A stretch of DNA of 64,000 nt, from assembly GCF_963678975.1 (NCBI RefSeq), contig NC_089275.1, positions 37,424,819 to 37,488,818 on the forward strand, given 5' to 3'. A model generated the notes under the pieces. The model saw nothing but the letters and a program-made list of their open reading frames with translations. It had not been told where the DNA came from and made no database searches. Shown piece by piece: positions 12,927-61,400 of the stretch; the stretch's first letter is position 1; every line of letters begins with the position of its first letter. The stretch is from Dysidea avara (taxonomy: Eukaryota > Porifera > Demospongiae > Dictyoceratida > Dysideidae). Made by a program: the position numbers and the translations under genes.

Positions 12927-15853
12927 TTACTGACAAGGTGATGTATGCATGTATTCACCAAAAAGTAATGAATAAGTGTCAGGTAATGGACATTCCAACT
13001 CTTTTACATTAATTTTCCTCCTTTTGCTGTTGATCATTTCAAGTTCTCTCTTGGCACTATCACAATTTTGTAAAAGATCAAATAATTTTAGTTTATAAAT
13101 AGAATTATTGCAGTGTAGGCTCTTCAATAATTTCATATACGATTCTTCGTCTATTGTATGATCACTGCACAATTCCAGTTCCTTCAATGTAGCATTGTTG
13201 GTAATGGCTTCAGCAATTGCAGTGGCACCTTCTTGACTTATACCATTATTACTAATGTAAAGCCTTTCCAATGAAATATTCTGTGTTAAACTCTTTGCAA
13301 ATACAATAGCTCCAGTGGCTCGGATTTTATTCTGACTAATGTCTAGTATCTTTAGTACTTTGTTAGTGGCAATAACTTTAGCAAATGCTGAGGCTCCGCT
13401 ATCACTAATATAATTACCTTTTATGCAAAGTACTTCCAATGAAGTGTTTTTGACTAAACTGGTAGATAATGCTATTGCCCCAGCATTTCTAATTCTACTG
13501 AAATTAATGTAAAGTTTTGTGATTGTTTTGTTGATAGCAATAGAGGCAGCAAATGCTGTGGCTCCACTGTTGTATATATTATTGCTGTTCAAGTTTAGTA
13601 CCTCCAGTGAGGTGTTGTGTGTCAACTTGTCTGCAATAGCTTTGGCTCCTAAAGCACCAATTTCATTTTGATGGATTAAAAATGATCGCAGTGTGTTGGA
13701 TTCTTTAATTCCTTCTGAGAGAATTACAGCAGCAGCATCATCAAGTTTGTTATCACTGATATCCAGTTCTACCAAACAGCTCATCATATCTCGGATTGCT
13801 GATGCATCTTGTGAAGTAAGATGAGTGTGAGACATGTTCAATACTTTGACTGTGATTGTACTGACTATTGCAGTAGAGATATCCCTCATGTTGTGCAATT
13901 TGTTGCCATCTAAGACTATTGTGTGTGGCTGAAGTTGACTGATAATGTCTCCAATGAGAGGTGATGATACCATGGTAAGGTTATTATTGGTAAGATCTAT
14001 CATTTTTATTTCTTGCTTCCTTGTTTGATCTCCACAAAGGTAATGGTGTAGTATTTGGATGCCATAATCTCCAATATTACTGTCACACAAACGTAGTTCT
14101 TTCCATTTTCCGGGTGAATGTGATAGGAAAAATCCTAGGCCCACTAACTGGAATGTGAGTACATAGCCACTGATGTTAACCTTACCATTGCAGAAAGAAT
14201 TAGCCAATGCTCCACATACATAGTCATCTTGGGCCTCTTGGAAACATTGGTACAAGTAGAGAATCTTATAAGGATCTTCTAAGATGTTTTGTGAAACAGC
14301 TACACTGGCATATCCAACCTGGTTGGAGGATGACCCTTGCTCATTTGAAACAATATTGTTTTTTGATGTCATTTTTGTGTCAACTTTATAACTATTAGCA
14401 TCATGCTTACCTGATACTAGAAAACCTTTATGAACTAACAAAACAGGAAGGTTGGGTTCTCTGCATGTTGCTATATGATGATGTAAACTATTACACTGTC
14501 CACTAGTTACACCACAGTACATGATCCACATGTTGGAGAGACGTACACAGTTATCATCAGGAAAACCACCTACAGATGTGGTAGTAAGGAATGAATCTTT
14601 CAGGAGAGCAAGCACCTCACTTTCTGGTAAAGTTGCTACATATGTGGCAGCAAAATATTCTTGTATTCCTAGGTGAAGAAAATTAAATGATTTTGTCATA
14701 GTGCCAATTTCACCTGGACAATAAAATCGAACACATTGTAATAGTCCATAACAAGTAGGATCCTCCTCGCACATGTCAGGTACTTCATCCATTGCAAACA
14801 CAATTTTATCCTCTAGAAGACTATCAAATGCAAGTTTCCCCAGGTGTTGTAGTGTTTGCTGGACCGGCTGTGGTAATTGTTCCACTTCATTGGTGTGTTC
14901 ATCTTCAGTAATCCTCTTTGTTCTTTTAAGGTAATGACAAATTGTGTGTAATACAAAACTTTGATACATTTTACAAGCCGTTGGTGGCAGGTCCTCTGGT
15001 TGACACATACAAAGAAACACAATGATGGACATTAATAAAGGAATATAGCAAATTGCATCGATGTTTGGATATTGTTGAAAGTGTATCTGTAACTTCTCTA
15101 GCTTTGAAGGAGAATCCTGTAAGGCTTCATTTACATATTGCTTTCTGCTAGTTTGGTCAAACCCAAGAATTTCAACCCTTCTGTCTATGATACTATGAAG
15201 ACAAGCAGAAGCAATAGGTCGTGATGTCACTACTATCTTAGTTTTGGGCAATACTTTCTTTTCAAGTAGTTGTTTAAAGAATGATTCTGTGCGTAATTTG
15301 CTGTTCAGTTCATCAAAACCATCAATGATCAAGGTAACATCAGCTCCATTAGTGTCTTCTAAATAACTGTGTAGTTGCATTACCTTACTGGTGGACTGTA
15401 CGAAATGCTTTATAAGTTGCTGTATGTTTTTTATTCTCTGTACATTAGGATCTCTCAACAACAGGAGGAATACCAGTTTGTCAGAGGTAAGCAGTTTTCC
15501 TTCAGCCCATTCAATGCAGATCTCTTTAACAAGAGTTGTTTTTCCTATTCCAGGATGACCCTCGATGAGGATACAATTAGGAACACTACCAGATTGACAG
15601 TCGAACAATTGTACAATGTCAGTAAACTGTTGGGAATTAGCCTTTTTAGGTATATCCGAAATGTCTCCTTTTGTACGCAAGAAAATGGTTTGTGTTGTTT
15701 CTTCACTTGTTTGTAAATCTTTCTGATACATGAGAGCCAATGTAGTGTAAGACTTCGTTTTAACAGGTGGCCAGGAGTCTTGCTCTTCTCCACGTTTCTT
15801 AAGTCTCATACTGCAGTATTGTACCTTCATAAATTCACTCAGCCAATCAACCA
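12927..15853 (-). CDS. NACHT-LRR receptor, large exon (NLR-like)
   Basis: A single open exon of about 975 codons. In order it encodes a short linker; a NACHT ATPase domain with Walker A GHPGIGKTT roughly 100 residues in, Walker B LIIDGFDEL about 70 residues later and a sensor-like VVTSRP; a helical region (CYIPLLMSIIVFL..., FNFLHLGIQEYFAA, typical of NLR winged-helix/superhelical parts); and, after residue ~590, at least ten ribonuclease-inhibitor-type LRRs of about 28 residues with the pattern LEVLNLNSNNIYNSGATAFA. The stop is at 12927-12929. There is no ATG at the 5' end: the frame enters through TTTTGTCTACAG/TGGTTGATT, a good acceptor, so the true start is upstream and the exon begins in phase 1. 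NACHT-LRR proteins are cytosolic pattern receptors that oligomerise through NACHT. Exons at 26378-27263 on the same strand have matching phase and encode a Death domain. Confidence 0.93.
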
Positions 15854-16043
15854 CTGTAGACAAAATAGTACACAACTATGTACTATAGCAATGTATGTTG
15901 CAGCCATAATTCATACAATTAAAATAAACTGGTACGTCAATTATTTGATTTAACAAAGTGTAACAATTAGGAGTGCATCGAATCCTATGGACAATGGAGT
16001 ATGTAGCCCCATAAACAGCGAAATTCATTCATGGCTGCTGTGT

Positions 16044-37171: not shown

Positions 37172-38041
37172 ATGTTAACTGGTATGAATAGCTATAGTAA
37201 CTTCAACCCTCATCATGCGGCAGAAGAGTTTGAGTTGACAGAGAATTCACTGACAGAGAAGTCTGATATGTATGAATATGATTTTGGAGAAGTTGAGTTT
37301 TCTTCTATCACTATCACTGGTCTACCAGTAGAAGATGTTCAGTTGATGGCTATACAATTGATGATAGTGAAGTACACAACAGAGAAGTAAGGTCGTTGAC
37401 TGATGAACTAGGATGGCATCTTGATAGAAATCACTGTCACTATAGATGGATACAATGTAATCCAATGCCATGAGTAGCTGTACTGTAGCTTTATAGATGA
37501 TAATAAAAATAAATGCATGCTTGATCTCAATTTACGTCTGTAGCTACCTATCATGAGCAAATGATAACATTTTGCACTTTTCATGGTATCATTCATTCAC
37601 TGGGATATATATGAATCAACAATTCAATGGAGATACATGCAAGTAATGGAGGAAGTAAGTCTCTGAAGATTGCTTGAACACATATTGTAAAAAGGCTTTC
37701 AATAATAATCAACTGGGCGAAAAAAATTTTCATAGTGGAATTTAAAGCTTGAGTTCTTCACATGGATTTTATTAGATGATATCCCACTATAGGGACCTGT
37801 GAGAAGGCTAAAGCCTGTGAATACAGGGAGTCAGAGACATGTAACTGAAATGTTGAAGAACACAGAAAACAATCACAGACCCAGTGGTGACTTGATCCTG
37901 CACAACATGCAGTCTAGGCATGCACCAGAGGAGCCACAACAGCTGGGATCTGAGATCTTCTCTGAACATAATACATTGTTACCCACACAAACATATTGGC
38001 CAGCTATTTACCTTTTGGCAAAACGTCTATACCATATATAA
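37172..38041 (+). other. Two coding-like frames, unrecognised
   Basis: Frames at 37172-37390 (72 residues, acidic, containing EFELTENSLTEKSDMYEYDF) and 37799-38041 (80 residues, polar, containing PSGDLILHNMQSRHAPEEPQ) have more protein-like composition than surrounding DNA. No domain is recognised, and splice sites that would join them were not confirmed. They may be exons or remnants; low confidence. Confidence 0.2.
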
Positions 38042-40673: not shown

Positions 40674-41800
40674 CTATAGCATACTAATTCTGAAGAAGAC
40701 ACAATCATCCTTGAGATACTGACGTGTAGAAGTAATCCTGTTAAGGATTTCTTTGGAAATGAACCGATCTCTTCCATGAGCAGTACTAATCTCATTGTCA
40801 TCATCATCATCTTCTTCCTTGTCTTCATCATTGTCTTTTTCTTCATCGTTGTCATCATCATTGCCATCATTCATTTCATCATTGTCATCAAAATCTTTAT
40901 CATCAGTGCTGCTGTCGAATGCTTCACCATCAATGCCTTTGTTGCAGCCACCATCTACATGATCATCATCAATCTCCATATTCAGTGACAGATCCATCAG
41001 AGTATGAATGCAGTCATTTTTCTGATTCAGCAACAGCACTTCAAACCTTCTCACCAGCGGCCATGTGAGCTCATCATCATATGGACCATTCATGATGCAC
41101 AGGTACACTGACAAGTGAGTTCCTATACCAGCACCATTACCAGCAGGACAAACACAGAGACACATTTTATAACCTCTGTCATGGGTGTAAAAGGGGTTAC
41201 TATACCATTCAATCTGCTCTTCCTCTTTTTCTTGAAATTCAGTGAGCTTAACAATAACTGGACACATCTGACCACCTGATGTACTCATTTCTGATATCAC
41301 TGCTAGCGTAACTGACCACTTCGCTGCTGACACTATTGATTCTGTACCACTGATATTAGTGGAGAGAGTTGTGTGATACATCAACACCATTAGACTGTTG
41401 ATCTGCTTTAATGCAATGGCAAGTTGTAGTTTAGTACTATCTAGTTCAGATGTAGATATTGACAGCTGCTGTTGAGTAGCAAATAATTCAGCCTCATTAT
41501 CTGAATACTTTTGTTCCAAATTAGCTGATAATTGTTGGTTAGTACCACTTAACTCGGATTCAGTCTCTGACAGCTGTTGTTTAGCATCAGACAGTTGGTG
41601 TTTAAGATCAGTTATCTGTTGTTGCATTTCATGCTTGGTCATAAACAGATGATCTTTCATCTTCTCTTCTTCATGTTTCTTCAAGTCTTTCCGCATCATC
41701 CGCTCTTCACATCCTACATTGAGATACTCACACCGAACAATTTCAAGAGGGCATTCTTCCCTGTGTGCTTTCATATCTTTACGAGGGACACTTCCCAGCT
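40674..41800 (-). CDS. TRAF-like protein: zinc finger, coiled coil, MATH domain (5' incomplete)
   Basis: About 370 residues from 41800 to the stop at 40674. Order: TRAF-type zinc finger (KDMKAHREECPLEIVRCEYL, GCEERMMRKDLKKHEEEKM); a glutamine-rich coiled coil of about 90 residues with repeated QQQL/SELS heptads; then a MATH/TRAF-C domain (WYSNPFYTHDRGYKMCLCVC, YLCIMNGPYDDELTWPLVRR, FEVLLLNQ) ending in the family signature TRQYLKDDCVFFRI. A block of about 65 mostly Asp/Glu/Asn residues (roughly 267-335) is inserted between the LLNQ strand and the last strand, where normal TRAFs have a short loop. The RING and first zinc fingers expected upstream are missing: minisatellite C abuts the coding sequence at 41797. 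Either the array lies in an intron and supplies the acceptor (TTCTTTGTAG/CTGGGAAG) or the gene is truncated. TRAFs couple receptors to ubiquitin signalling in the cytosol. Confidence 0.85.
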
Positions 41801-42388: not shown

Positions 42389-42710
42389 ATCTAATCCAAA
42401 ACAGCCAAGCTGTAAAAAAAGTGTGCGGCCCTCAGAAAGGCTATGGTGAAAAAAGATGTGAAATCCAAGGTGGCGGCCAAGAAATGGCTGTGATGGTAGG
42501 TTAATGGTAAAAATTTTAATAACGACAATTCAGGTGAATTTTTGTGCCGCTTCACAAAATTTACCTGAATTGTCATTATTAAAATTTTTACCATTAACCT
42601 ACCATCACAGCCATTTCTTGGCCGCCACTTTGGATTTCACATCTTTTTTCATCATAGCCTTTCTGAGGGCCGCACACTTTTTTTTACAGCTTGGCTGTTT
42701 TGGATTAGAT
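42389..42710. mobile_element. Foldback element C
   Basis: The cleanest copy: starts ATCTAATCCAAAACAGCCAA and ends with the complement GGCTGTTTTGGATTAGAT. The arms are nearly perfect over about 150 bp around a short loop at about 42540-42555 (GCCGCTTCACAAAAT region). Because of the near-perfect pairing the arms appear recently homogenised. Confidence 0.92.
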
Positions 42711-42720
42711 AAGATATATC

Positions 42721-43065
42721 TCCACTACAATAATCAACACAAACACAGTCAGAGTACTACACATGAGTGGGATTTCCCTCACGCCACAAGAAATGCCAGC
42801 AATTTCTGATGTGATGATCTGCTTGGAAGAGTTGCACATAAGTGAAAACAAAATTGATGATGTTGCAGCAATACAGTTATCAAAAGGATTAATGAAAACC
42901 ACCATGTTGCGAGAACTGTATCTTTTTACAAACTGTATTGGAGCTCCAGGAGCTAAAGCAATTGCAAACAGCTTACAACACAACACATCATTGGAGATAC
43001 TGCACATGGGTGGTAATGCTATAGGTAAAGATGGTGCTATAGCATTTGCTAGAATGATCTCTATA
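42721..43065 (+). pseudogene. Orphan LRR fragment of an NLR paralogue
   Basis: Open from 42721 (before the first ATG at 42763) and encodes about 115 residues collinear with the LRR region of the 12927-15853 NLR. Compare TNTVRVLHMS, LEELHISENKIDDVAAIQLS, GAPGAKAIANSLQHNTSLEI and GGNAIGKDGAIAFARMISIN with the NLR's LVELDISDNKLDDAAAVILS and GALGAKAIADKLTHNTSLEV. Homology begins right after foldback C and ends about 43065, after which the frame runs 13 non-homologous codons to a stop at 43104. No NACHT is nearby. Read as a truncated duplicate, broken on its 5' side at the foldback. Confidence 0.75.
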
Positions 43066-43104
43066 AACAATTTTTGCAAGAAGAACAGCTATATACTATT
43101 ATAA

Positions 43105-44499: not shown

Positions 44500-44855
44500 A
44501 CTGATTATGCTAGAATAATTTGGGGCATAATAGGTAGCCAAACATTGAACACAATGCCAGCATAATAGGCACAATTTTTGTGCTAAAATTCAGCACATTT
44601 GATGCAGAATGGGATAGTAGTAAAAATCAGATTTACACCCACTTGTGAAGGAGATTAGATATACTCTAATAGAACAGTCACCATTTGCTAATAGAACATT
44701 TGCAGCTAGATGCATTTGATACTCTAATAGAGCAGTCATGACACAATTTTATATGAGCATAATTATTTGAAGCATAATGGGGCACAATGGGCATTATTGG
44801 AGCAAAATTTTGGAGCATTGCTCAAAAGCATAATAGGCAATAAATTATCTCAGGC
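44500..44855. mobile_element. AGGCCTG-ended MITE, copy 2
   Basis: Shares 'agcataatgggg', 'cattattggagcaaaatttt', 'gcataatagg' and the terminal 'caggccta' with the complement of 29793-30216. Three dispersed motifs lie at 44653-44735. The left boundary is approximate. Confidence 0.5.
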
Positions 44856-45900
44856 CTACCATCCCCGACTCACTGATCTTATATCTTGAAGCAAATTACA
44901 CAAGGACCTTCAAGGTGCTAAATTCTTTGCAGTATACAGCTGCAGCATACCCAAGAAACAAGTAGTATGGATGGACATACTATAGCTGTAGTCACCTACA
45001 ATTATACTCTTTACCACATATACACAGTGATTTTTTAAAGAGGAGATTGTTGTAGATTTGTATCAACCGCAGACACACCACTCTTGTTAACTTTAAAGAT
45101 GCTTAAACTTTAAAATAAGCACAATGCAAATATGCAGTAATTTTTTTCTGCGGATAACAAGTGCATAGCTCCTCCCCTCCCCTCCCCTAAATCTGACCCT
45201 GCATAAGTATTCATCATCACCATCTTATGCTAAGATGTGAAATTCAAGAATTTATTGGTAACTAGCTACTACATAACATGAGGCATACGATAAACAATTT
45301 ATGGTGCGTGTAGTGATGACTTGCATGTGAAAGAAAGGTCTTGTGAATAAAGTAAGTATGTATTGGATTTGTTGATGTTTCGTATACACAAGACAGCTAC
45401 ATAGTAGAAATAATTATGTAGCATCATATGTGGTACATTTGAAGGCTTTACCTTACAACAAAAAAATGCATCCTTCAGTTACAGAATCCAAACACTTCCA
45501 TATAACAGTGAAACCTCAACACCATTGCGATAAGATTATTCAGGTAGTATTACATATAAAAAGACCATTTGGTATACAAAACAATGTCAGATTATACAGG
45601 CATTCTGAGGTTTCAGCATAATTACTTAATACTTCATACAACACAACTTATAATAGCATTCACAGTGCATCACATAAACAACAGGCTGCACTCCAGGACA
45701 GATGTGAACTGACTATAGTCTAGGTAGCTGTGTATACCATATTTCTTTGGCATGTCATTTGAACTCTATTGTACAAGATTCACCAAAACTATCTAATTAA
45801 ATTATCTCATTGATCATTGTTATTAATAATAAAAATGGAATTACAAAACGAGTGATATAGGTATATTTATATTAAGTTCTGTTCTCATAGAGATCAAGTG
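44856..45900. other. Spacer, transposon crumb only
   Basis: No gene seen. 'ctcccctcccctcccctaaatctgaccctgc' at about 45171-45204 looks like a hAT terminus without a partner. Confidence 0.4.
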
Positions 45901-45907
45901 AATTTGT

Positions 45908-47847
45908 CTATGGCATCATAAGAGAATCTCCACTACCATCACTGTCACCATCATCATCTACAATAAAATTAACACAAATGTATACGTATAGTGATAGCAA
46001 TAAGTCGTTGAACAATATGTGGCAAGATATTGGCAGGCAGAAATGCTGTCAGTACAGCCCTGCTACTAATGCTACATACCTAATACCTTCTGTACATCAT
46101 GTCATGACATTAATAAAAAAAAGGAATTTGGCTTAAAGGTCACTGGAATAAACTTTCAGGTTTAGCTTCAGAGTATATAGTATGGTCATTCTAAACTTAC
46201 CAACACATCTACTTCCAGTATACAGCAGTCTGTTGGATGTGTACCCCATTTCCCAGCGTGGTAGTGTACTAAAATCAATAGCATCTTCTGTGGCCATACT
46301 GACAAGATGTTTCTTGACTTCCTGAGGTGTGAAATCGGGATATTTCTCCAATACTTGAGCAGCTGCTCCTGCCACTATGCCACAAGATAGTGATGTTCCA
46401 GTAGTTGTACTACAGAGAGAAACAACATATAAAAATTGTACAATCAATAGGATAAAGCTTCTATTTTGACATGTTTAAGTTAACATTTGAAAAGGACTTC
46501 AACTATGTATATCTGTAGCTTGAAAACACACAAGACAGACACACATTTTTTATTGATTTGCCTAATGAAGCCACAACTATAGTTAGACAACCAACACTCA
46601 AGACTATGACAATGTCATACACAAGTAACACAACTATATCATTCTTACATGTATGCATCATTATCAGTTGCAGCTGTCACTAGCTGTCCAGGGGCAAACA
46701 GTGTTACACATTTTCCATAGTTGGTACCCTCCAAGAAGGAACGATACAACCCATCATGTCTGGTTGTAGCACCAACACTGATCACATCTGGTGAACTGGC
46801 AGGAGAATATCTACAGGCATTGTCCACCTGGTTCCCTATCAAACAATAGCAACTTCACACTAAATATGTATCATACAAATATCACTATGTTATAATTAGT
46901 ACGCAGTTGCTGGTATATTTGCCTGTTGCTAGCTATAATGTATATCTACTGGTATAACCAAACTACCTTGGTGTCATAGGTGCATGTGTTACACATGTGA
47001 ACCAGACACTTACCAGCTGCAGCTACTACTACGATACCCATCTTTGTAGCCTTCTTGATGATGTTATTAAGAGGAACAGAGTAATAGGTGTACAGTGGGA
47101 GGGCTATAACTACTCTACGAGTACTATCTGTTGACTTTACCACCTTCATAACATGGCGGATTCCATCAATGACCTTTGAAACAGTAGTGAAGAGAAAGCA
47201 CTCCAAAACATCAATGCTGTAAACAAATTGGCACATTTGATAACCACATTTAGTTGATACAGATCATAAGCACACACTCAGGTAGTAGCTACAATATATG
47301 ATAGAAATTATACCTGTAAACATTGGCCTTCCTGGCTACTCCAACAGTATTCCCTGCTGCCAAGCTAGCTACCATAGTGCCAAAATAAGCACTAGAGCAT
47401 AGTCCACTTTTTGTGCTATACCCTCCATCAAATGCTCTACCACCAAATTCTGCATGGTCATGTTGTATTCCTTCACCAAACACATAAATATCAACTCCAG
47501 ATCCTACAAAGGAATAAAGTTAATTCCTAAATTCAGGACAGCATGATCAGAGCTCTATTTCAAATACTATGTATATCTCAACTGCAAAATTGTTTAGAAT
47601 GTGTAAATAGATATAGATAGATAGATTTACCATTTTCTGATGGGCAGTATTTTCCATTGAGTGGTAGTGACCGCTGATCAATTCTATCAAGATGCCATCC
47701 TAATCCAAAATCCAGTGATCTTGAGTCTCTCTTGTGTACTTCACTGTCATCAATGGCAGCCTTCACTTGACTATCTTGTACTGGTAGAGCAGACACCAGT
47801 GATATCAACAATGCTAATACAGTCAATTTCTTTACTATCGAATTCAT
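45908..47847 (-). CDS. Secreted proteinase K-like (S8) pseudopeptidase, six exons
   Basis: Exons (minus): 47847-47631, 47503-47314, 47216-47014, 46835-46649, 46409-46201, 45957-45908. All have GT/AG borders and total 1056 nt, giving 351 residues. Residues 1-20 are a signal peptide (KKLTVLALLISLVSA). Then come a short pro-like segment with a KR pair (39-40) instead of the ~70-residue I9 inhibitor domain, and an S8 fold: GWHLDRIDQRSLPLNGKYCP, GSGVDIYVFGEGI, GIVVVAAAGN, CRYSPASSPDVISVGAT, NYGKCVTLFAPG, TGTSLSCGIVAGAAAQVL. In proteinase K the Asp of VIDTGI and the His of GHGTHCAG are catalytic. Here these positions are Gly82 and Phe113; only Ser272 and the oxyanion Asn205 remain. The acidic tail (DDDGDSDGSGDS) is on its own exon. 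Intact frame, splice sites and signal peptide argue for a functional non-enzyme rather than a pseudogene. Confidence 0.88.
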
Positions 47848-47928
47848 ACTTAAAAAGTTAAGCAATCAAAGCACTACTTACTAATAGTTCTACTGAATGA
47901 TTGATAAGCTGCTATTGGGAGGCTGCAG

Positions 47929-47936
47929 TATTTATA
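47929..47936 (-). promoter_or_regulatory. Candidate TATA box of the S8 pseudopeptidase gene
   Basis: On the minus strand TATAAATA lies 82 bp upstream of the ATG at 47847, leaving room for a transcription start near 47900. Position and sequence fit a TATA box; there is no independent proof. Confidence 0.45.
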
Positions 47937-47939
47937 CAT

Positions 47940-49110
47940 GCTGGCTGTGGTATATGCCAAGTGTGCAATGATATACTTTAGTCCAGGATGTGGTCGTATT
48001 ACATCATCAGTGTGATGTGGACTGTTATGATATTGGTATGGCTTGTTTACACAGTCATAATGAATAAAATTTGACTGTTACCATAGCGCATTATGTACTG
48101 TACATACACCTCAACCAATTGATCAAAGCTAGGTGTCCACTTTCCAGGTGACCTTACATCATAAAAGTGCACAACATGTGAAACTAAATCTATCCATTTT
48201 ACAGTGCACTGTACCATTGTGAGATGTGTGGTGTTGCTATGAATGCGCTAAACTACTTTCTAACTGTGCTTACAAGTGCAATTTTTTCAACAAAGTATGC
48301 CAGACAAAATAAAATCTGACTAAATTATAAATAGAGTGTGCCAACAAGTATATGCAAACAATTCACAAGTACTCAAGCAATAGCACAGATTAAATTCCCG
48401 CTTTGGCAATGCACATATGTGCACACTTGTCACACAGAGCTAGTGACAGTGGTCTAGAATATATTCGTAACATCCAGGATGTGTTATTAAAGGTTAAACA
48501 CTTTTATCATAGTTTAAGGGTTACTATCATTGACCTTTGTGCTGTTATCTAAATCATGATATTACTCATGATACAAAGTACAACACTGCCTCATATCCTA
48601 TACTATGACATCACTGGGTAGACCTGTCCAGTTGGTACATCAATAGTGTAGTGATGTAATTGATTACTACTGCCTGAAGCTGACTAGTCAGAACTCAACT
48701 TCTGTAGTGACAGGAGCGGCAAGGTAATGTTGGTGATTAAAAGTACGTATGGATTTGATTTAAAAATTAAAAGATGAGACAAACTTTGTTTCTTCTGTTT
48801 CATGCACATCGTCAGTAAATAGATATATGTATTCTGAGGCAGATTTACCCGATAATCAGTCTGGTGGGTGATATTAGCATAATATAAAATGCTCAGTATC
48901 TATCTATCCCAAGTATCCAAGTTGTCTGATATTGCAACCTTCTGCACTTTCAAGTAAATATTTGTAAAAATCTGTGTTGTTCAATGTTTGGTCCTTAAGT
49001 ACTATTTACATATGTACGTACATTCATACAACTGCTTTCGGGAAAAAAATATTATATAATTTGGCACTCTGTGTCTTGTGTTCATTAGGAATCTTTTAGG
49101 ACAATAAATT
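47940..49110. other. Intergenic spacer, no gene seen
   Basis: No coding or RNA gene could be supported upstream of the S8 gene. Confidence 0.4.
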
Positions 49111-49640
49111 TTAAGGTGGTGCAACAAATCGTACTATGAAATTCGTAGAATAAAAGAAATTTGAACCCTTGTAATGGATTTCTACATACACACACACGCA
49201 TACACGCACATGCACACACACACACACAACAAAGCAAAAAAGTAAAGCCTATGGCAGCAGTGCAAAACACAACTATGGCCACCCAGCGAGCCAGTACTGG
49301 GATGCCTGTGCACCACTCAGACACTTGAGTCTTGTGCACACAAATCCTAGGGCTAGTTACCCGCAGTAAGACTGTCCATGCAGGTCTCAGAGAGGTCACA
49401 GAACCTGAAGTTTCACAACAACTCCATCCGCTAAGCAAGACAAGGACAGTTGGGAGTTTGTTCCCCTGGGTACCCATTGATGTTGCAGCTGGGTGGGCTG
49501 CTTTCCCAGTTGACACCGGACTACCAGGGTAGACTGGAGCAATGTGAGTATAAGTTTCTTTCTCAAGGAAACACCAAATGGCAACAAACCTGGAATGTTT
49601 CGATTACTAGACCAATGCTACCCACACTAGTGCTGTACAC
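49110..49640 (-). mobile_element. tRNA-derived SINE-like repeat
   Basis: Read on the minus strand: a head with GTAGCATTGGTCTAGTAATC (A-box like), a weak B-box GGTTTGTTGCC, then the phrase CCACCCAGCTGCAACATCAA followed by 'tgggtaccca', a body type I know from SINEs of several invertebrates. It ends in a (TG)n tract, seen as CA repeat at 49182-49228. Open frames across it on both strands are by-products. Confidence 0.5.
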
Positions 49641-52187: not shown

Positions 52188-52453
52188 CCTCTCTCTATGA
52201 TAAGCAATTGCACCTTGATGGCTTACTGTTATTGTCCGTATACTATCTGGATACCCCTCAAATCGTCGCGACACTTTACTAGTTATTTCCAAGTGCTATA
52301 CACTCTGCTCGAAGAACATAACATTCCGCCTTGCATTCCTCTGCTCCTTAGTAATGAAACAATAGCGAGGAGACAAGGCACCGAGCTTCTTAATTTCACG
52401 CGCATCTTCTTGCGCATCACATAATAAATCTTGTGTATTCTATTTTATTCGTG

Positions 52454-55400
52454 ATGGAAAAGTTTCCTTGGGGAAGCGCTGATCAATGGGAGGAATACCT
52501 GCAGACACACTATCATTTGATCAATTCTCCCGCTAATGACCGCGGCCACACAATCTTGCACATGGCGGTGCACCGCAACTACCTCAGCTTGGTGAATTTG
52601 TTGTTGAGACTAGGGGCTGACCTCGAGGCGAAGACAGAAAAGGGTGAAACTCCATTGTTGATAGCTTGTCAGGTATACACCATAATCTGTATTGTAGGTA
52701 CCTATAATTGCACTACAGTAGAAATACAGAAATATGCTTTTGAAGCGTTGTGAATACACCATCAATGCTAGGGTCCGCAACGCGAAAAATCGATATCCTC
52801 CAATCAACTACCAAACTATTGTCATGTGTTAGGCTAAGTGTAACTTGAATAACACCAGCATGGCAGCCAAGTTTGTCACTTTCGTCTGGTAGAAAACGAT
52901 ACAAATGTCTTAAAATCACGTAATTTTTCATTGCAGCAGTTCGTAAGGTTCTTCGTTTGCCACAATATTCACTCTCAACATTGTTCAAGTAGTCTATCAT
53001 CAACTCAAGTATTGGTGGTTTGATTTTATTGGTCAGTTTCTGGTGGCAGCACGATCTGTGCAGCTTTTTGGCGACAGACAAAATGTTCCTCTGGAGCACA
53101 GGACAAGTAGAGCAGCAACTGCACCGTAGGTCAGCAATGACCAGCACTAGGTAAAGTACCTGCATGCGGAGTATGGTTATAATTGAAGCTTGTTAGCCAT
53201 CTGGCTGAGCCATCTATATGCTATCTGGCTGAGCCATCTATATGCTGAAATTCGGCCAAAATGATGCGAGTTTTGCAAACAAATACCAGAATGGTTGATA
53301 CATCAGTGAGACAGTCTCCAACAGCAAGGATATGAAGTTTATAAACACCTAACCATACGGCTATCTCGCCCAGTAAGCGCATAGAGTATGAAATAAGCAC
53401 TCATGTGATCGAAATTCAAATCACGGAATCACCCATGAAATCGCTTTTATTTCTGAATAGGAACCATGCAGTGTGCTCCTTTTGTAAATTTTTGTTTTAA
53501 TTGTTCACTCAAGCCCCAGTGTAGGTGTGTTTTATGCTGTGATGGTATTGTAGGGAGAGTCTTAGACTGATGGACTAATCGAGATACTGAACCTAATGCA
53601 CACAAACTGATTGTCACTTGATTCCAAGTGATTTTAAGGTCATTGGAATAGATTATGGTTGTATTTTCCGAGATTTGAATATCGATCACTTAAGCGCCTA
53701 TTTCATGCATTGGATTGCTCTATGCGTTTACTGGGCGAGATAGCCGTATTGTTAGGTGTTTATAAGCTTTGTATCCTTGCTGTTGGAGACTGTTTCACTG
53801 ATGTATCAACCATTCTGGTATTTATTTGCAAAAATCGCATCATTTTGGCCGAATTTCAGCATATAGATGGCTCAGCCAGATGGCTAACAAGCTTCAATTA
53901 TAATCATACTCCGCATGCAGGTACTTTACCTAGTGCTGGTCATTGCTGACCCATGGCACAGTTGCTGCTCTACTTGTCCTGTGTTCCAGAGAAAGAAACA
54001 TTTAGTTTGTCGCCAAAATGCTGCACAGATGGTGCTGCCACCAGAAACTGACTAATAAAATCAAACCACTGATACTTTGAGTTGATGATAAACTACTTGA
54101 ACAATGTTGAGAGTGAATATCGTGGCATACGAAGAACCCTACGAACTGCTGCAACGAAAAATCATGTGATTTTAAGACATTTATATCGTTTTCTACCAGA
54201 AGAAAGTGACAAACTTGGCTGCCATGCTGGTGTTATTCAAGTTACACTTAACCTAACACATGACAATAGTTAGGTAGTTGATTGGAGGATATCGATTTTT
54301 CGTGTTGTGGACCCTACGTACCAATGCAAGTCCCAACATGAAAATTTGGTGATACACAAGTGATTGTGAGGTTCGTGTAATATGTGTGAAGTAAGGGCTG
54401 CATACATGTGACATGTCTTCAGGTATTCTCTAAAGAGTGGTGCTCTTGGTAGAGCACTGCTCTAGTTTGCTTAAATTTCTTTCAATGTGGTAAAAGAATA
54501 TCTATAATTTAAAAAATGATTTTATGTTGTTGGTAGCTAATTGCCAGCTCTACTTTACCTTGATTTAATCATGTGTATTACTTTTAGTGTTGTACCGATT
54601 CCCACCTTTTAGGCTAAGCCGATTATCCAATATTTTTTGTCTATTTTACCCATAGTTAACTGATACCTGATTGTAGGTCTCTACAAGTTATACTTATTTA
54701 TACTCCACTAAAAGTACAGCTTACAATGCCAAAGCTGTGAGGTCAAAGGAGGATGGTCACTCAACATACAACATTTCCCTACTTACGTAGGTGGCCTCCC
54801 CCAAAGTTGGCTCTGAATGTGGTGCTTGGCTGGAATCTGGGTGGCCTGTGGATCACGTCATGATGGGGTTGGCTTTTTTTCTGGCCTTCTAGGTATTTGT
54901 CCCGTTTCACTTCAGGATATTTAGCTCAAAGATTTTCGTTGAGACTCCTAGGCTATGGGTAAACACCTTGAACAGGCTCTGCCTTCTGTGTACACCCTCC
55001 AGTGCCTAACTGGTAAAGTAGATAATAACAATAACATAGCCCTATGACGTACTACTACGTGTAATTACATGGCACCTGAAATTAGCATCATTTTTATGAA
55101 GCCCCTCGTCATGAGAGTTATGCATAATTTAGCGTTATTTCTTAGTTCTAAAGGTCACATAAAGTGTGGGCAGCTGAAAGAAGGGCTCTGGGAACTGTAA
55201 TTTATCAATATCAATTCGCACATTAGAATATTTTGTATTGATACTGAGGTGTCGGGGTTGAATCTTTAAGATCACAAGATGTTTGACCAACTGTGAGGTT
55301 GTGCACTTACCTCAACTCAAACTGCTAATCAGAGAAGTGGGCTAGGGCTCTAACCATCACTGTTTATCATATGGTTGGCTTTGTGGTTACCACTAAACAT

Positions 55401-58400
55401 AAGTAAACTACATAAGTGCCATTGACAACAACCTTGTAGTGGTACTGTAGCTGCTGAATAGGCTAATAGTCTGCCCATTTCAGAAGCTTAGTGCTAATGA
55501 GCACCTGATACAATTGATTTTGATTGTGGTAATAAAAACAGCTAATTATCGGCTTCTACGGATTACTATCTGATTATTGCATACTGAACATAAACAAGTG
55601 AGTACTTAGTTTGAAATTGTTACAGTTTCACAAATCTTTGAGGGTGCGATGTAACTGTATAAGGAAACTATTAAATAATTTTGCAAGTAGCTAAACATAA
55701 GTCCTGTTCTTCCCTCTCTATTCAAAGAATGACAAATTCAATGTTATGTTATGTTTTGTATATTGTACTATTGTATTGTGGCTACCTACCTACTTACATA
55801 TTGCTTCACTCCATAGTCTGGCAGTTTGTATACTACTCACGCTCTGGTCACTGCTGGGGCTGACGTCATGGCAACTAATAATAAAGGCTTGTCCTGTGTT
55901 CATCTGAGTGCATCTGGTGGATTGGTGTAAGTGTCATGGTGTGTGTGCGCGCGCATGCATGCGCACATGGGCGTGTGTGTTTATGTGTTGTATATAGTGT
56001 GTGTACACGTGTATGCATTTTTAGTGTATTGCTGCTAATGTACTTGTTGTGAGCCTAATTTGTTGATAGTGTGACTAGTGGCAGCACCCCTGTGGCAAAG
56101 GTGTTGCGTTGGCTGTGCAACAGAACCTGCACACAACACAACATAACATACATACCATGCTATTGTATTGCAGAAGAGCGCTCCACCCTCCAGTTTATTT
56201 TCTTGCTTGGCCTGGCATGCTTCCCTTGACTAGGTGGGTATCTCCCAAGGAAGGGATGATAATGTTCTTTAGACAGGGAGTATTAAGTATTGTAGTGTTG
56301 TAGTGTTTGTGTGCATGTGTATGTGTTTATGTGTATATATACAGTGTCTGAGGCCATAAATAATCCACACACGCACACATACTCACACGCGTGCGGTCAG
56401 CACACACACATACACATAATGTATATTATATATATGAAGGTGTGCAGTAAAGAGGTTCTTATACTGTACACTGCATTTTTCTTTATTACTATTTTGTGAA
56501 CATATATGACACTTTAATGTGTTCTTTTCTCATAGTCATCTCATCCACTACCTTGTGACTACCAAGCAAGTGTCTCTTGCTGTTAAAGATAATGAGTGAG
56601 TCACGTTAAGGTTGATAGGACTACTGTGTAGCCCCTCAATATGGACACCTCATCAACATGTACATACGTATCTATGGTCCCTTTAGTGAATAAGCACTTA
56701 GGTTTTTAGGCTGCTTTTATAAGAACAGGTCAAGCTATGAACATGTGTAAGTGTCCAGAATAGAGGGGGCCCTACTGTACTGTGTTCTATTGTATTGTGT
56801 TCTATTGTATTGTGTTGTACTGTACAGTATTGTGTTGTACTGTACAGTATTGTGTTGTACTGTACAGTATTGTGTTGTACTGTACTGTATTGTGTTGTAC
56901 TGTACTGTACTGTACTGTACTGTATTGTGTTGTACTGTACTGTATTGTGTTGTACTGTACTGTATTGTGTTGTACTGTACTGTACTGTACTGTACTGTAC
57001 TGTACTGTATTGTGTTGTACTGTACTGTATTGTGTTGTACTGTACTGTACTGTACTGTACTGTACTGTACTGTACTGTGTTGTACTGTACTGTATTGTGT
57101 TGTACTGTACTGTACTGTACTGTACTGTACTGTGTTGTACTGTACTGTATTGTGTTGTACTGTACTGTATTGTGTTGTACCGTACTTTACTGTAGTCTGT
57201 TGTATTGCACTGTGTTGTACTGTACTACACTGTACTGTACTGTACTGTACTGTGTTGTACTGTACTGTACTGTACTGTACTGTGTTGTACTGTACTGTAC
57301 TGTACTGTACTGTACTGTGTTGTACTGTACTGTACTGTGTTGTACTGTACTGTACTGTACTGTACTGTACTGTACTGTACTGTACTGTACTGTGTTGTAC
57401 TGTACTGTACTGTGTTGTACTGTACTGTACTGTACTGTACTGTACTGTACTGTGTTGTACTGTACTACACTGTACTGTACTGTACTGTACTGTGTTGTAC
57501 TGTACTGTACTGTACTGTACTGTGTTGTACTGTACTGTACTGTACTGTACTGTACTGTACTGTACTGTGTTGTACTGTACTGTACTGTACTGTACTGTAC
57601 TGTACTGTGTTGTACTGTACTGTACTGTGTTGTACTGTACTGTACTGTGTTGAACTGTATTGTACTGTGTTGTACTGTACTGTACTGTGTTGAACTGTAT
57701 TGTACTGTACTGTACTGTGTTGTACTGTACTGTACTGTGTTGAACTGTACTGTACTGTGTTGTACTGTACTGTACTGTGTTGAACTGTACTGTACTGTGT
57801 TGAACTGTACTGTACTGTACTGTGTTGAACTGTACTGTACTGTGTTGAACTGTATTGTACTGTGTTGTACTGTACTGTACTGTGTTGAACTGTACTGTAC
57901 TGTGTTGTACTGTACTATACTGTGTTGAACTGTACTGTACTGTGTTGTACTGTACTGTACTGTGTTGTACTGTACTGTACTGTGTTGTACTGTACTGTAC
58001 TGTACTGTACTGTACTGTACTGTGTTGTACTGTACTACACTGTACTGTACTGTACTGTACTGTGTTGTACTGTACTGTACTGTACTGTACTGTGTTGTAC
58101 TGTACTGTACTGTACTGTACTGTACTGTGTTGTACTGTACTGTACTGTACTGTACTGTACTGTACTGTACTGTGTTGTACTGTACTGTACTGTGTTGTAC
58201 TGTACTGTACTGTGTTGAACTGTATTGTACTGTGTTGTACTGTACTGTACTGTGTTGAACTGTATTGTACTGTACTGTACTGTGTTGTACTGTACTGTAC
58301 TGTGTTGAACTGTACTGTACTGTGTTGTACTGTACTGTACTGTGTTGAACTGTACTGTACTGTGTTGAACTGTACTGTACTGTACTGTGTTGAACTGTAC

Positions 58401-61400
58401 TGTACTGTGTTGAACTGTATTGTACTGTGTTGTACTGTACTGTACTGTGTTGAACTGTACTGTACTGTGTTGTACTGTACTATACTGTGTTGAACTGTAC
58501 TGTACTGTGTTGTACTGTACTGTACTGTGTTGTACTGTACAGTACAGTACAGTACTGTACTGTACTGTGTTGTACTGTACTGTACTGTGTTGAACTGTAT
58601 TGTACTGTGTTGTACTGTACTGTACTGTGTTGAACTGTATTGTACTGTGTTGTACTGTACTGTACTGTGTTGAACTGTACTGTACTGTGTTGTACTGTAC
58701 TGTACTATGTTGAACTGTACTGTACTGTGTTGTACTGTACTGTGTTGAACTGTATTGTACTGTGTTGTACTGTACTGTACTGTGTTGAACTGTACTGTAC
58801 TGTGTTGAACTGTACTGTACTGTGTTGTACTGTACTGTACTGTGTTGAACTGTACTGTACTGTGTTGTACTGTACTGTACTGTGTTGAACTGTACTGTAC
58901 TGTATTGTACTGTGTTGTACTGTACTGTGTTGAACTGTACTGTACTGTATTGTACTGTGTTGTACTGTACTGTGTTGAACTGTACTGTACTGTACTGTGT
59001 TTTTCTGTACTGTACTGTGTTGAACTGTACTGTACTGTGTTGAACTGTACTGTACTGTGTTGAACTGTACCGTACTGTGTTGAACTGTACTGTACTGTGT
59101 TGTACTGTACTGTACTGTGTTGAACTGTATTGTACTGTGTTGTACTGTACTGTACTGTACTGTACTGTGTTGTACTGTACTGTACTGTGTTGAACTGTAA
59201 TGTACTGTGTTGTACTGTACTGTACTGTGTTGAACTGTACTGTACTGTGTTGTACTGTACTGTACTGTACTGTGTTGTACTGTACTGTACTGTGTTGTAC
59301 TGTACTGTACTGTGTTGTACTGTACTGTACTGTGTTGTACTGTACAGTACAGTACAGTACTGTACTGTGTTGAACTGTATTGTACTGTATTGTACTGTGT
59401 TGTACTGTACTGTGTTGAACTGTACTGTACTGTATTGTACTGTGTTGTACTGTACTGTACTGTGTTGAACTGTACTGTACTGTGTTGAACTGTATTGTAC
59501 TGTGTTGTACTGTACTGTACTGTGTTGAACTGTACTGTACTGTGTTGTACTGTACTGTACTGTGTTGAACTGTACTGTACTGTGTTGTACTGTACTGTAC
59601 TGTGTTGAACTGTACTGTACTGTGTTGTACTGTACTGTACTGTGTTGAACTGTACTGTACTGTGTTGTACTGTACTGTACTGTGTTGTACTGTACTGTAC
59701 TGTGTTGTACTGTACTGTACTGTGTTGAACTGTACTGTACTGTACTGTGTTGAACTGTACTGTACTATGTTGTACTGTACTGTACTGTGTTGTACTGTAC
59801 TGTACTGTGTTGAACTGTATTGTGCTGTGTTGTACTGTATTGTACTGTGTTGTACTGTACTGTACTGTGTTGAACTGTACTGTACTGTGTTGTACTGTAC
59901 TGTACTGTGTTGAACTGTACTGTACTGTGTTGAACTGTACTGTACTGTGTTGAACTGTACTGTACTGTGTTGTACTGTACTGTACTGTGTTGAACTGTAC
60001 TGTACTGTACTGTGTTGAACTGTACTGTACTGTACTGTGTTGAACTGTACTGTACTGTACTGTGTTGAACTGTACTGTACTGTGTTGAACTGTATTGTAC
60101 TGTGTTGTACTGTACTGTACTGTGTTGTACTGTACTGTACTGTGTTGAACTGTACTGTACTGTGTTGAACTGTACTGTACTGTGTTGTACTGTACTGTAC
60201 TGTGTTGTACTGTACTGTACTGTGTTGTACTGTACTATACTGTGTTGTACTATACTGTTGTGTGTTGTACTGTACTGTGCCAGGTGCAGTGGAACAATTC
60301 TATGTGTACATGTATGTGTACATGCATGCACGTGCACTATAAAAGTTACATGGTTAGGAATTTGAAGTATACAACATACTGAAATGCCAGCTTTAGTGAT
60401 GCACCATTTAGTTGGTAAATAATCGGAAATCGATTAATCAGCCAAATTTCAGCAATATTGGTACCAGTAATAATTGTTAGTAGATTATTTAGCCGCCTGG
60501 TGTTATTATTTTCATAACAATAAGACAAAATAATGATTTAAAAAGGCAATTTTTAAAATATATGTTGGAATCGTGGTAAGCATATGCCACTTTAGCATTA
60601 ATTTCCCATATTGCCTGGGAAATATCACGGGAATGCATATGGCTTTGATGCCCAACCAGTACGATACACTTTGACTCATTATATTGAGCAACATGGAGCA
60701 TTTAATTGTGGGTTTGGGTTTATAGATTAGGCTAGGCTCAGTTTCAACTAGTTGATAGTTACTAAATCCAAATGATTAGTACTAAAGATAATCGTTTTGG
60801 ATACATATTTCTACCCACCACACATTAGCCATTGAGCAGACCACACAAATGACAACTAGATTTAAGTAGGTGATTAACTTATTGTACTAACTTTCTGTCC
60901 CAATAGTGAATTTAGTAGGCTTAATGTAGTACACAATTCTAAAGCTAAAAGTCGGATCCCACAATTGCAGTTTTTCTGGCACTGTGTGTAAAGTCCATTC
61001 TGATATCGGTATGGTTTATGGCTAATATCCCTGACCTTAACAAGCAGGTGGCTACATTATTATCAAGAGTAAGTAATGGAAGGTTTACTCTTGTTATTAG
61101 TACGGCTGTTGGCACTATAATCTTTGTCTTCCTAATATAGAATTTTTTCTATTGTATCTTAATTTGGGGAATTGAAGTTCCACTGTATTCCAAAAGTTGT
61201 AGAAAAAATATGGTTTTATGTGACTGCTGTATTAGAGTATTATACATATGTTGCTGTTTGCTCTAAACATGCTTTGTTTGCCAGTGCTCCCAATGCTAAA
61301 CAGGCATTGTGGTTTATACATCATTTTTGTCTACAGGTTTAATACACCGTTACACTATGCTGTCCAGCAGAGGAGAACTCAAACTGTCAAGTACATATTG

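Follow-up and report, generated by a model that had tools for sequence, protein, structure and literature searches.

PCSK9 is a secreted human S8 protein that acts by binding, with no cutting in trans, and it retains a prodomain and carries a C-terminal Cys/His-rich domain. Among the known S8 pseudoproteases are proteins of clostridial spores, CspA and CspC of Clostridioides difficile; we know of no acidic Ser-Gly-type tail on either of them, nor of any glycosaminoglycan core protein built on an S8 pseudoprotease. CspA and CspC are reported to be S8 pseudoproteases that have lost two residues of the catalytic triad and have retained both the prodomain and an inserted jelly-roll domain, the latter of about 130 residues (PMC6636752).

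Here, we analysed a stretch of 64,000 nucleotides from the sponge Dysidea avara (contig NC_089275.1, positions 37,424,819 to 37,488,818), referred to as the window throughout. It carries a gene that, as its sequence supports well, would encode a secreted proteinase-K-like (S8A) pseudoprotease, with six exons on the minus strand, GT-AG introns throughout (phases 1,2,1,2,1) and 351 codons plus a stop:

47631..47847, minus strand: exon 1, with the start codon, the signal peptide, a short linker and the start of the mature S8 domain (GWHLDRIDQRSLPL)
47314..47503, minus strand: exon 2, carrying the positions of the former catalytic Asp and His
47014..47216, minus strand: exon 3, with the S4/S1 groove segments and a Ser-to-Pro change at residue 176 (ALPL)
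46649..46835, minus strand: exon 4, with the oxyanion Asn205, Cys211, Cys246 and an Asp-to-Thr change at residue 248
46201..46409, minus strand: exon 5, with the nucleophile Ser272
45908..45957, minus strand: exon 6, with the acidic tail (DDDGDSDGSGDSLMMP), the stop and Ser344, a candidate site of glycosaminoglycan attachment

The signal peptide (MNSIVKKLTVLALLISLVSA), read by eye, covers residues 1 to about 20 (47847-47788); a single exon spans from it to the start of the mature domain at GWHLDRIDQRSLPL, and the frame stops about 20 residues past the S8 domain. A purpose-written spliced protein-to-genome aligner returned an identical model, which bears out the clean six-exon, 351-residue frame of the original prediction, made from the letters alone. 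That prediction had also considered that an alternative exon with intact motifs might exist. Across all minus-strand frames of window positions 44500-49500 we found no HGT, GHG or D-T/S-G motif, and an exon restoring VxDTG or HGTH was therefore rejected for this interval. Searching the window with tblastn revealed no second S8 gene, only a decayed relic of an exon 1 of the same type, with no further exons found beside it by the same method:

37357..37428, plus strand: exon-1 relic (IDDSEVHNREVRSLTDELGWHLDR), on the strand opposite to the window gene and about 8.5 kb from it

The window protein matches PF00082 with an E value of 6.4e-26, and the solved structures closest to it by sequence are those of aqualysin-1 (1.4e-42), PCSK9 (7.8e-42) and other proteinase-K-like enzymes, including proteinase K itself (1ic6, 1.5e-22), which confirms the proposed S8/proteinase K relationship. 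We aligned the window gene with 39 other S8 genes of the genome and two solved relatives (aqualysin and PCSK9). In this alignment, the column of the catalytic Asp holds Gly82 (codon 47477-47475) and that of the catalytic His holds Phe113 (codon 47384-47382), while the nucleophile Ser272 (codon 46393-46391) and the oxyanion Asn205 (codon 46833-46831) are kept, so that the replacement of Asp and His and the persistence of Ser and Asn were both read correctly from the letters. Measured against what defines an S8A enzyme, the protein thus has the S8 homology and the oxyanion Asn and lacks an Asp-His-Ser triad and a prodomain. With active S8A enzymes, such as aqualysin-1, proteinase K and the paralogues L018-L028, it has in common the fold (by homology), the Ser, the oxyanion Asn and the Cys residues; it differs from them by the replaced Asp and His, the absent prodomain, a degenerate groove, Thr248 and an acidic Ser-Gly tail exon.

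PCSK9 ranks with the best matches of the window protein in the PDB and, like it, has Pro at residue 176, but PCSK9 keeps Asp, His and Ser in the matched PDB sequence, whereas the window protein lacks Asp and His and has neither the intact triad with a self-cleaved prodomain nor the C-terminal Cys/His-rich domain. Direct orthology was rejected, as PCSK9 groups with another gene of the same genome, L041 (support 73). With the Csp-type proteins the window protein shares the loss of triad residues, but it lacks their prodomain and, as judged against aqualysin, their jelly-roll insertion, and it is an animal protein whereas CspA and CspC are bacterial spore proteins.

A genome-wide protein search (550.8 Mb, 108 contigs), followed by analysis of the fetched loci, identified six further genes that share the plan of the window gene, five on its contig and one elsewhere, so that the clade has at least seven members in this genome. 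Their residues in the columns of the catalytic Asp, the catalytic His, the oxyanion Asn and the nucleophile Ser are, in that order:

Window gene: G,F,N,S
L009 and L010, pseudoprotease paralogues at 36.96-37.05 Mb on the contig of the window: G,H,N,S
L011, pseudoprotease paralogue in the same 36.96-37.05 Mb interval: A,V,N,S
L012, pseudoprotease paralogue at 38.27-38.28 Mb on the contig of the window: S,Q,Y,K
L061, pseudoprotease paralogue in the same 38.27-38.28 Mb interval: S,Q,F,K
L059, pseudoprotease paralogue on contig C8: G,F,N,S

The catalytic Asp is gone in all seven (replaced by Gly, Ala or Ser), the His in five, and all four residues in two (L012 and L061), whereas Asp, His and Ser are kept in 32 of the 33 genes outside the clade in the same alignment. 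The aligning of S8A peptidases and the search for genes with the same losses, both suggested when the gene was first noted, thus yielded six paralogues in which the Asp is lost. The one exception outside the clade, L052, lies in an array near 11 Mb on the contig of the window and has Asn for the catalytic Asp (VLNTG), its His and Ser being intact. None of the spliced alignments of the six paralogues contains a frameshift or a stop; the model of L061 has unresolved first codons and requires one further gap, of 33 nt, in exon 3, and the alignment of L012 begins at query residue 7.

At the exon level, the genome holds at least 145 S8 matches by family search and at least 137 by protein search. 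The tree and the table of triad residues cover 40 of its genes together with aqualysin and PCSK9; incomplete or redundant loci (L013-L017 and L025-L027) were omitted from the tree, L001-L008 duplicate eight of L029-L058, and L043-L047 are exons of the window gene itself. Intron-bearing S8 genes on contigs C2, C3, C6, C7, C9, C10 and C14 lie outside the fetched set. In the tree, the seven pseudoproteases form one clade with a bootstrap of 100, and of 99 when 38 catalytic and groove positions are left out. They share their phase 1,2,1,2 introns with the intron-bearing active paralogues (the model of L024 differs at the first), and six of the seven lie with the array of these paralogues on one contig, within about 3.4 Mb. 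This array, an active proteinase-K-like expansion (L013-L028), was fetched at 39.4-40.22 Mb of contig C4, that of the window, with matches continuing to 40.35 Mb; this contig has further S8 arrays, at 10.7-11.6 and 41.2-41.5 Mb.

Beyond the sponge, our scan of bacterial and archaeal genomes returned three relatives among 100 pattern matches, and that of viral contigs one among 46. All four have the D-T/S-G, GHGTH and SGTS motifs of ordinary proteases, and bacterial, archaeal or viral orthologues of the pseudoprotease were rejected on these grounds. The viral relative (L067), on a 359-kb IMG/VR contig, is an S8 protease whose motifs are intact, encoded within an open frame of 1417 residues. Among the literature matches listed, no title or abstract opening described a family of S8 pseudoproteases in animals, or a proteoglycan built on an S8 protein.

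Relative to the window gene, the intron-bearing active paralogues in the 39.4-40.35 Mb array have about 110 additional residues between the signal peptide and the mature domain, encoded by two exons that a phase-0 intron separates. We found no trace of this active-type prodomain segment in the seven pseudoprotease loci, which scored 290-350 compared with 3685 and 2825 for two positive controls (at L059 the scan covered a short upstream flank of 595 bases), and signal peptide and mature start share one exon in the six clade genes whose start was reached. The prodomain had been predicted to be reduced to a short segment; its loss holds, whereas the remaining segment does not, since the scan finds no trace at all. 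In the one active gene searched, the segment was not recognised as Pfam I9, the name that we take to apply to the prodomain of these S8 genes. In its simplest reading, the tree suggests an order in which a protease may turn into a non-enzyme, with Asp and prodomain lost first, His later in separate events, and Ser together with Asn in L012/L061. The clade would thus derive from genes that had their introns in common with the active paralogues and that lacked prodomain and Asp, from which His and, in two members, Ser and Asn were lost piecemeal. Known S8 pseudoproteases of clostridial spores have kept the prodomain; this animal clade has dispensed with prodomain, triad and groove.

Losses of this kind could also mark a decaying pseudogene whose frame is open by accident, and a genuine relic of a clade exon 1 does lie in the window. 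A dN/dS comparison, suggested with the original prediction, speaks against such decay. Fitted to gap-free codons only, a single omega is 0.283 for the seven pseudoproteases (303 codons) compared with 0.191 for seven active paralogues (295 codons), which allows for some relaxation, and for the seven, with kappa and the tree fixed, an omega of 1 is worse by a 2 delta lnL of 223. The bootstrap upper limit of pairwise dN/dS is below 1 in 21 of 21 clade pairs (largest 0.71, for L009-L011). With frame and splice sites intact as well, we rejected the pseudogene reading for the window gene and, of all the readings, consider it the least probable; the clade genes look like selected proteins rather than relics, and a pseudoprotease family under selection is, on these sequence comparisons, close to certain. 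What had been proposed as one secreted pseudoprotease is thus well supported, secretion being predicted from the signal peptide, and widens to a clade of seven genes. A nucleophile and an oxyanion hole might still permit slow acyl-transfer or self-processing without Asp and His, as Ser and Asn are kept in five of the seven members and L009 and L010 have the His as well. This, too, is very improbable, as L012 and L061 remain constrained without Ser and Asn, with a dN/dS of 0.35 (0.25-0.48) between them; if their loss of all four catalytic residues is a shared one, it would predate the split of the two genes.

The pattern of conservation bears on what is being selected. Of 60 core positions that hardly vary among nine diverse active relatives, the window protein keeps 49, and seven of its 11 losses fall in catalytic and groove motifs (82, 110, 113, 116, 146, 176 and 269). 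Taking five less redundant clade members against the nine relatives, mean similarity is 0.451 at 18 conserved groove positions, which we list by what we take to be subtilisin numbering, compared with 0.853 at 73 other conserved positions (permutation p 0.00025, or 0.006 without the four catalytic residues). Cys108, Cys142, Cys211 and Cys246, which correspond to Cys residues that are paired in aqualysin and PCSK9, are invariant across the clade alignment. All seven members have Thr248 in place of an Asp that helps to bind calcium at the strong site in proteinase K, and Pro176 in place of the Ser of the S1 strand (SLGG), a Pro found in PCSK9 alone among the nine relatives. A conserved fold core with a degenerate substrate groove points to a function that is non-catalytic and located outside the groove. 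The old substrate site might instead bind and titrate peptides, prodomains or protease inhibitors; in favour of this, five of the seven members retain the oxyanion Asn and the Ser, and the clade is invariant in the SPA segment and in the AG of AAGN. Such a decoy or inhibitor trap mimicking the active site, one of the roles first proposed, is nevertheless disfavoured because drift at the groove positions that active enzymes conserve significantly exceeds that in the remaining core, and because Asn and Ser are both gone from two members; we regard it as quite improbable. The chief rival is a regulatory pseudoenzyme that pairs with active S8 paralogues and stabilises or activates them, with the acidic tail incidental. 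It is modelled on CspC and CspA, which have been proposed to act in this way on CspB in C. difficile, and the shared introns and common contig of the six dead genes and the active array are in its favour, as is the statement that pseudoenzymes frequently act as modulators of their cognate enzymes (PMC12880746). Yet one clade member (L059) lies on another contig, and the prodomain that CspA and CspC keep is absent from the clade, so that we hold this rival to be unlikely. A non-catalytic binding role of the clade seems probable to us: the pseudoprotease would fold without an intramolecular chaperone, be secreted, and act in the manner of PCSK9 by binding through surfaces outside the substrate groove.

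What the clade might carry is suggested by its C terminus, on which the original prediction made no remark. In all seven members the last exon is a separate, acidic one that contains a Ser-Gly motif of the kind usual at glycosaminoglycan-attachment sites; for L012 and L061 more than one acceptor was possible, and the choice was filtered by acidic content:

Window gene: DDDGDSDGSGDSLMMP, with the candidate Ser344 (codon 45934-45932)
L009: ESDFDGSGSLGVVFE
L010: ESDFDGSGSLGVVFG
L011: DDIDGSGTLGITIA
L059: DAGFDGSGGFDGSGDLGIIIN
L012: NEIPFSSSGSGSGVFSDDEDL
L061: EKEIPFSGSGDYNDNSDDEDLWK

In a mechanical scan of candidate terminal exons, reaching up to 1500 bases downstream, Gly/Ser-Ser-Gly with two or more acidic residues no further than six positions away occurs in seven of seven clade members compared with one of 13 active-type loci. 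The latter number comes from 14 of the 16 loci L013-L028 (all except L015 and L027), with L017 set aside as it had no anchor; the sole match, L013, is doubtful, its exon being long, distant and unlikely. Random stop-terminated frames carry the motif in 0.2% of cases under its strict form and 0.8% under its loose form (n=4003). Tails shuffled at the same composition do so in 3-26% (strict) and 17-57% (loose), which means that composition carries much of the signal, and the seven tails are related and do not count as independent cases.

According to PMC3039539, a Gly-Ser-Gly among many acidic residues is predicted to be a good acceptor for xylosylation, and secreted core proteins of the dentin sialoprotein type have such a motif within acidic residues, as the clade tail does. 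No consensus for glycosaminoglycan attachment was obtained from PMC8418075. By the description in the former source, an acidic-flanked Ser-Gly is present in seven of seven members, and the genome has the biosynthetic enzymes as well: it encodes a xylosyltransferase C-terminal domain (Xylo_C, 2.1e-17), a member of the GT43 glucuronosyltransferase family (1.2e-29) and several CHGN chondroitin enzymes (4.2e-113), three families without a match in 14 control genomes. The cys-loop receptor ligand-binding domain gave zero matches in this genome and none in its controls either; beside these animal-type enzymes and the NACHT-LRR-like and TRAF-like frames of the window, such an absence would fit a sponge.

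We grade the parts of our preferred reading separately. A secreted S8 pseudoprotease family with a binding role, possibly comprising proteoglycan core proteins, is the best explanation overall and, in our judgement, a moderately likely one. That the tail bears a glycosaminoglycan is a serious but tentative possibility. More tentative still is the fuller picture, in which an early-branching animal would make small secreted proteoglycans built on a dead proteinase-K-like domain as core protein, its protease fold having been taken over for use as a matrix ligand. Under this scheme, that recruitment would have come after deletion of the prodomain and stepwise loss of the triad, the C terminus would provide a glycosaminoglycan-attachment exon, and a chain added at the acidic Gly-Ser-Gly tail would make the dead protease domain the core of a small matrix proteoglycan. 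The conserved Ser-Gly tail yields a direct prediction on glycosaminoglycans in a sponge. Against it stands the statement of PMC5050403 that marine sponges produce none; if the prediction is true, candidate core proteins would be named in a phylum said to make no glycosaminoglycans. Under selection and beside a large active expansion on the same contig, the clade also offers seven natural variants.

The window contains several other open frames, which we named by eye. One of 982 residues at 12930-15875 (minus strand) has an NACHT-LRR (NLR-type) look, one at 40677-41798 (minus strand) resembles a TRAF-type zinc-finger/coiled-coil protein with a long Asp/Glu-rich tail, and the pieces at 42709-43101 and 52394-52750 (both plus strand) are LRR- and ankyrin-repeat-like. 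At 56700-60430 lies a simple repeat of about 3.7 kb that is open in several frames (YSTVQ.. / TVLYC..) and includes an artefact-prone open frame of 1009 residues.
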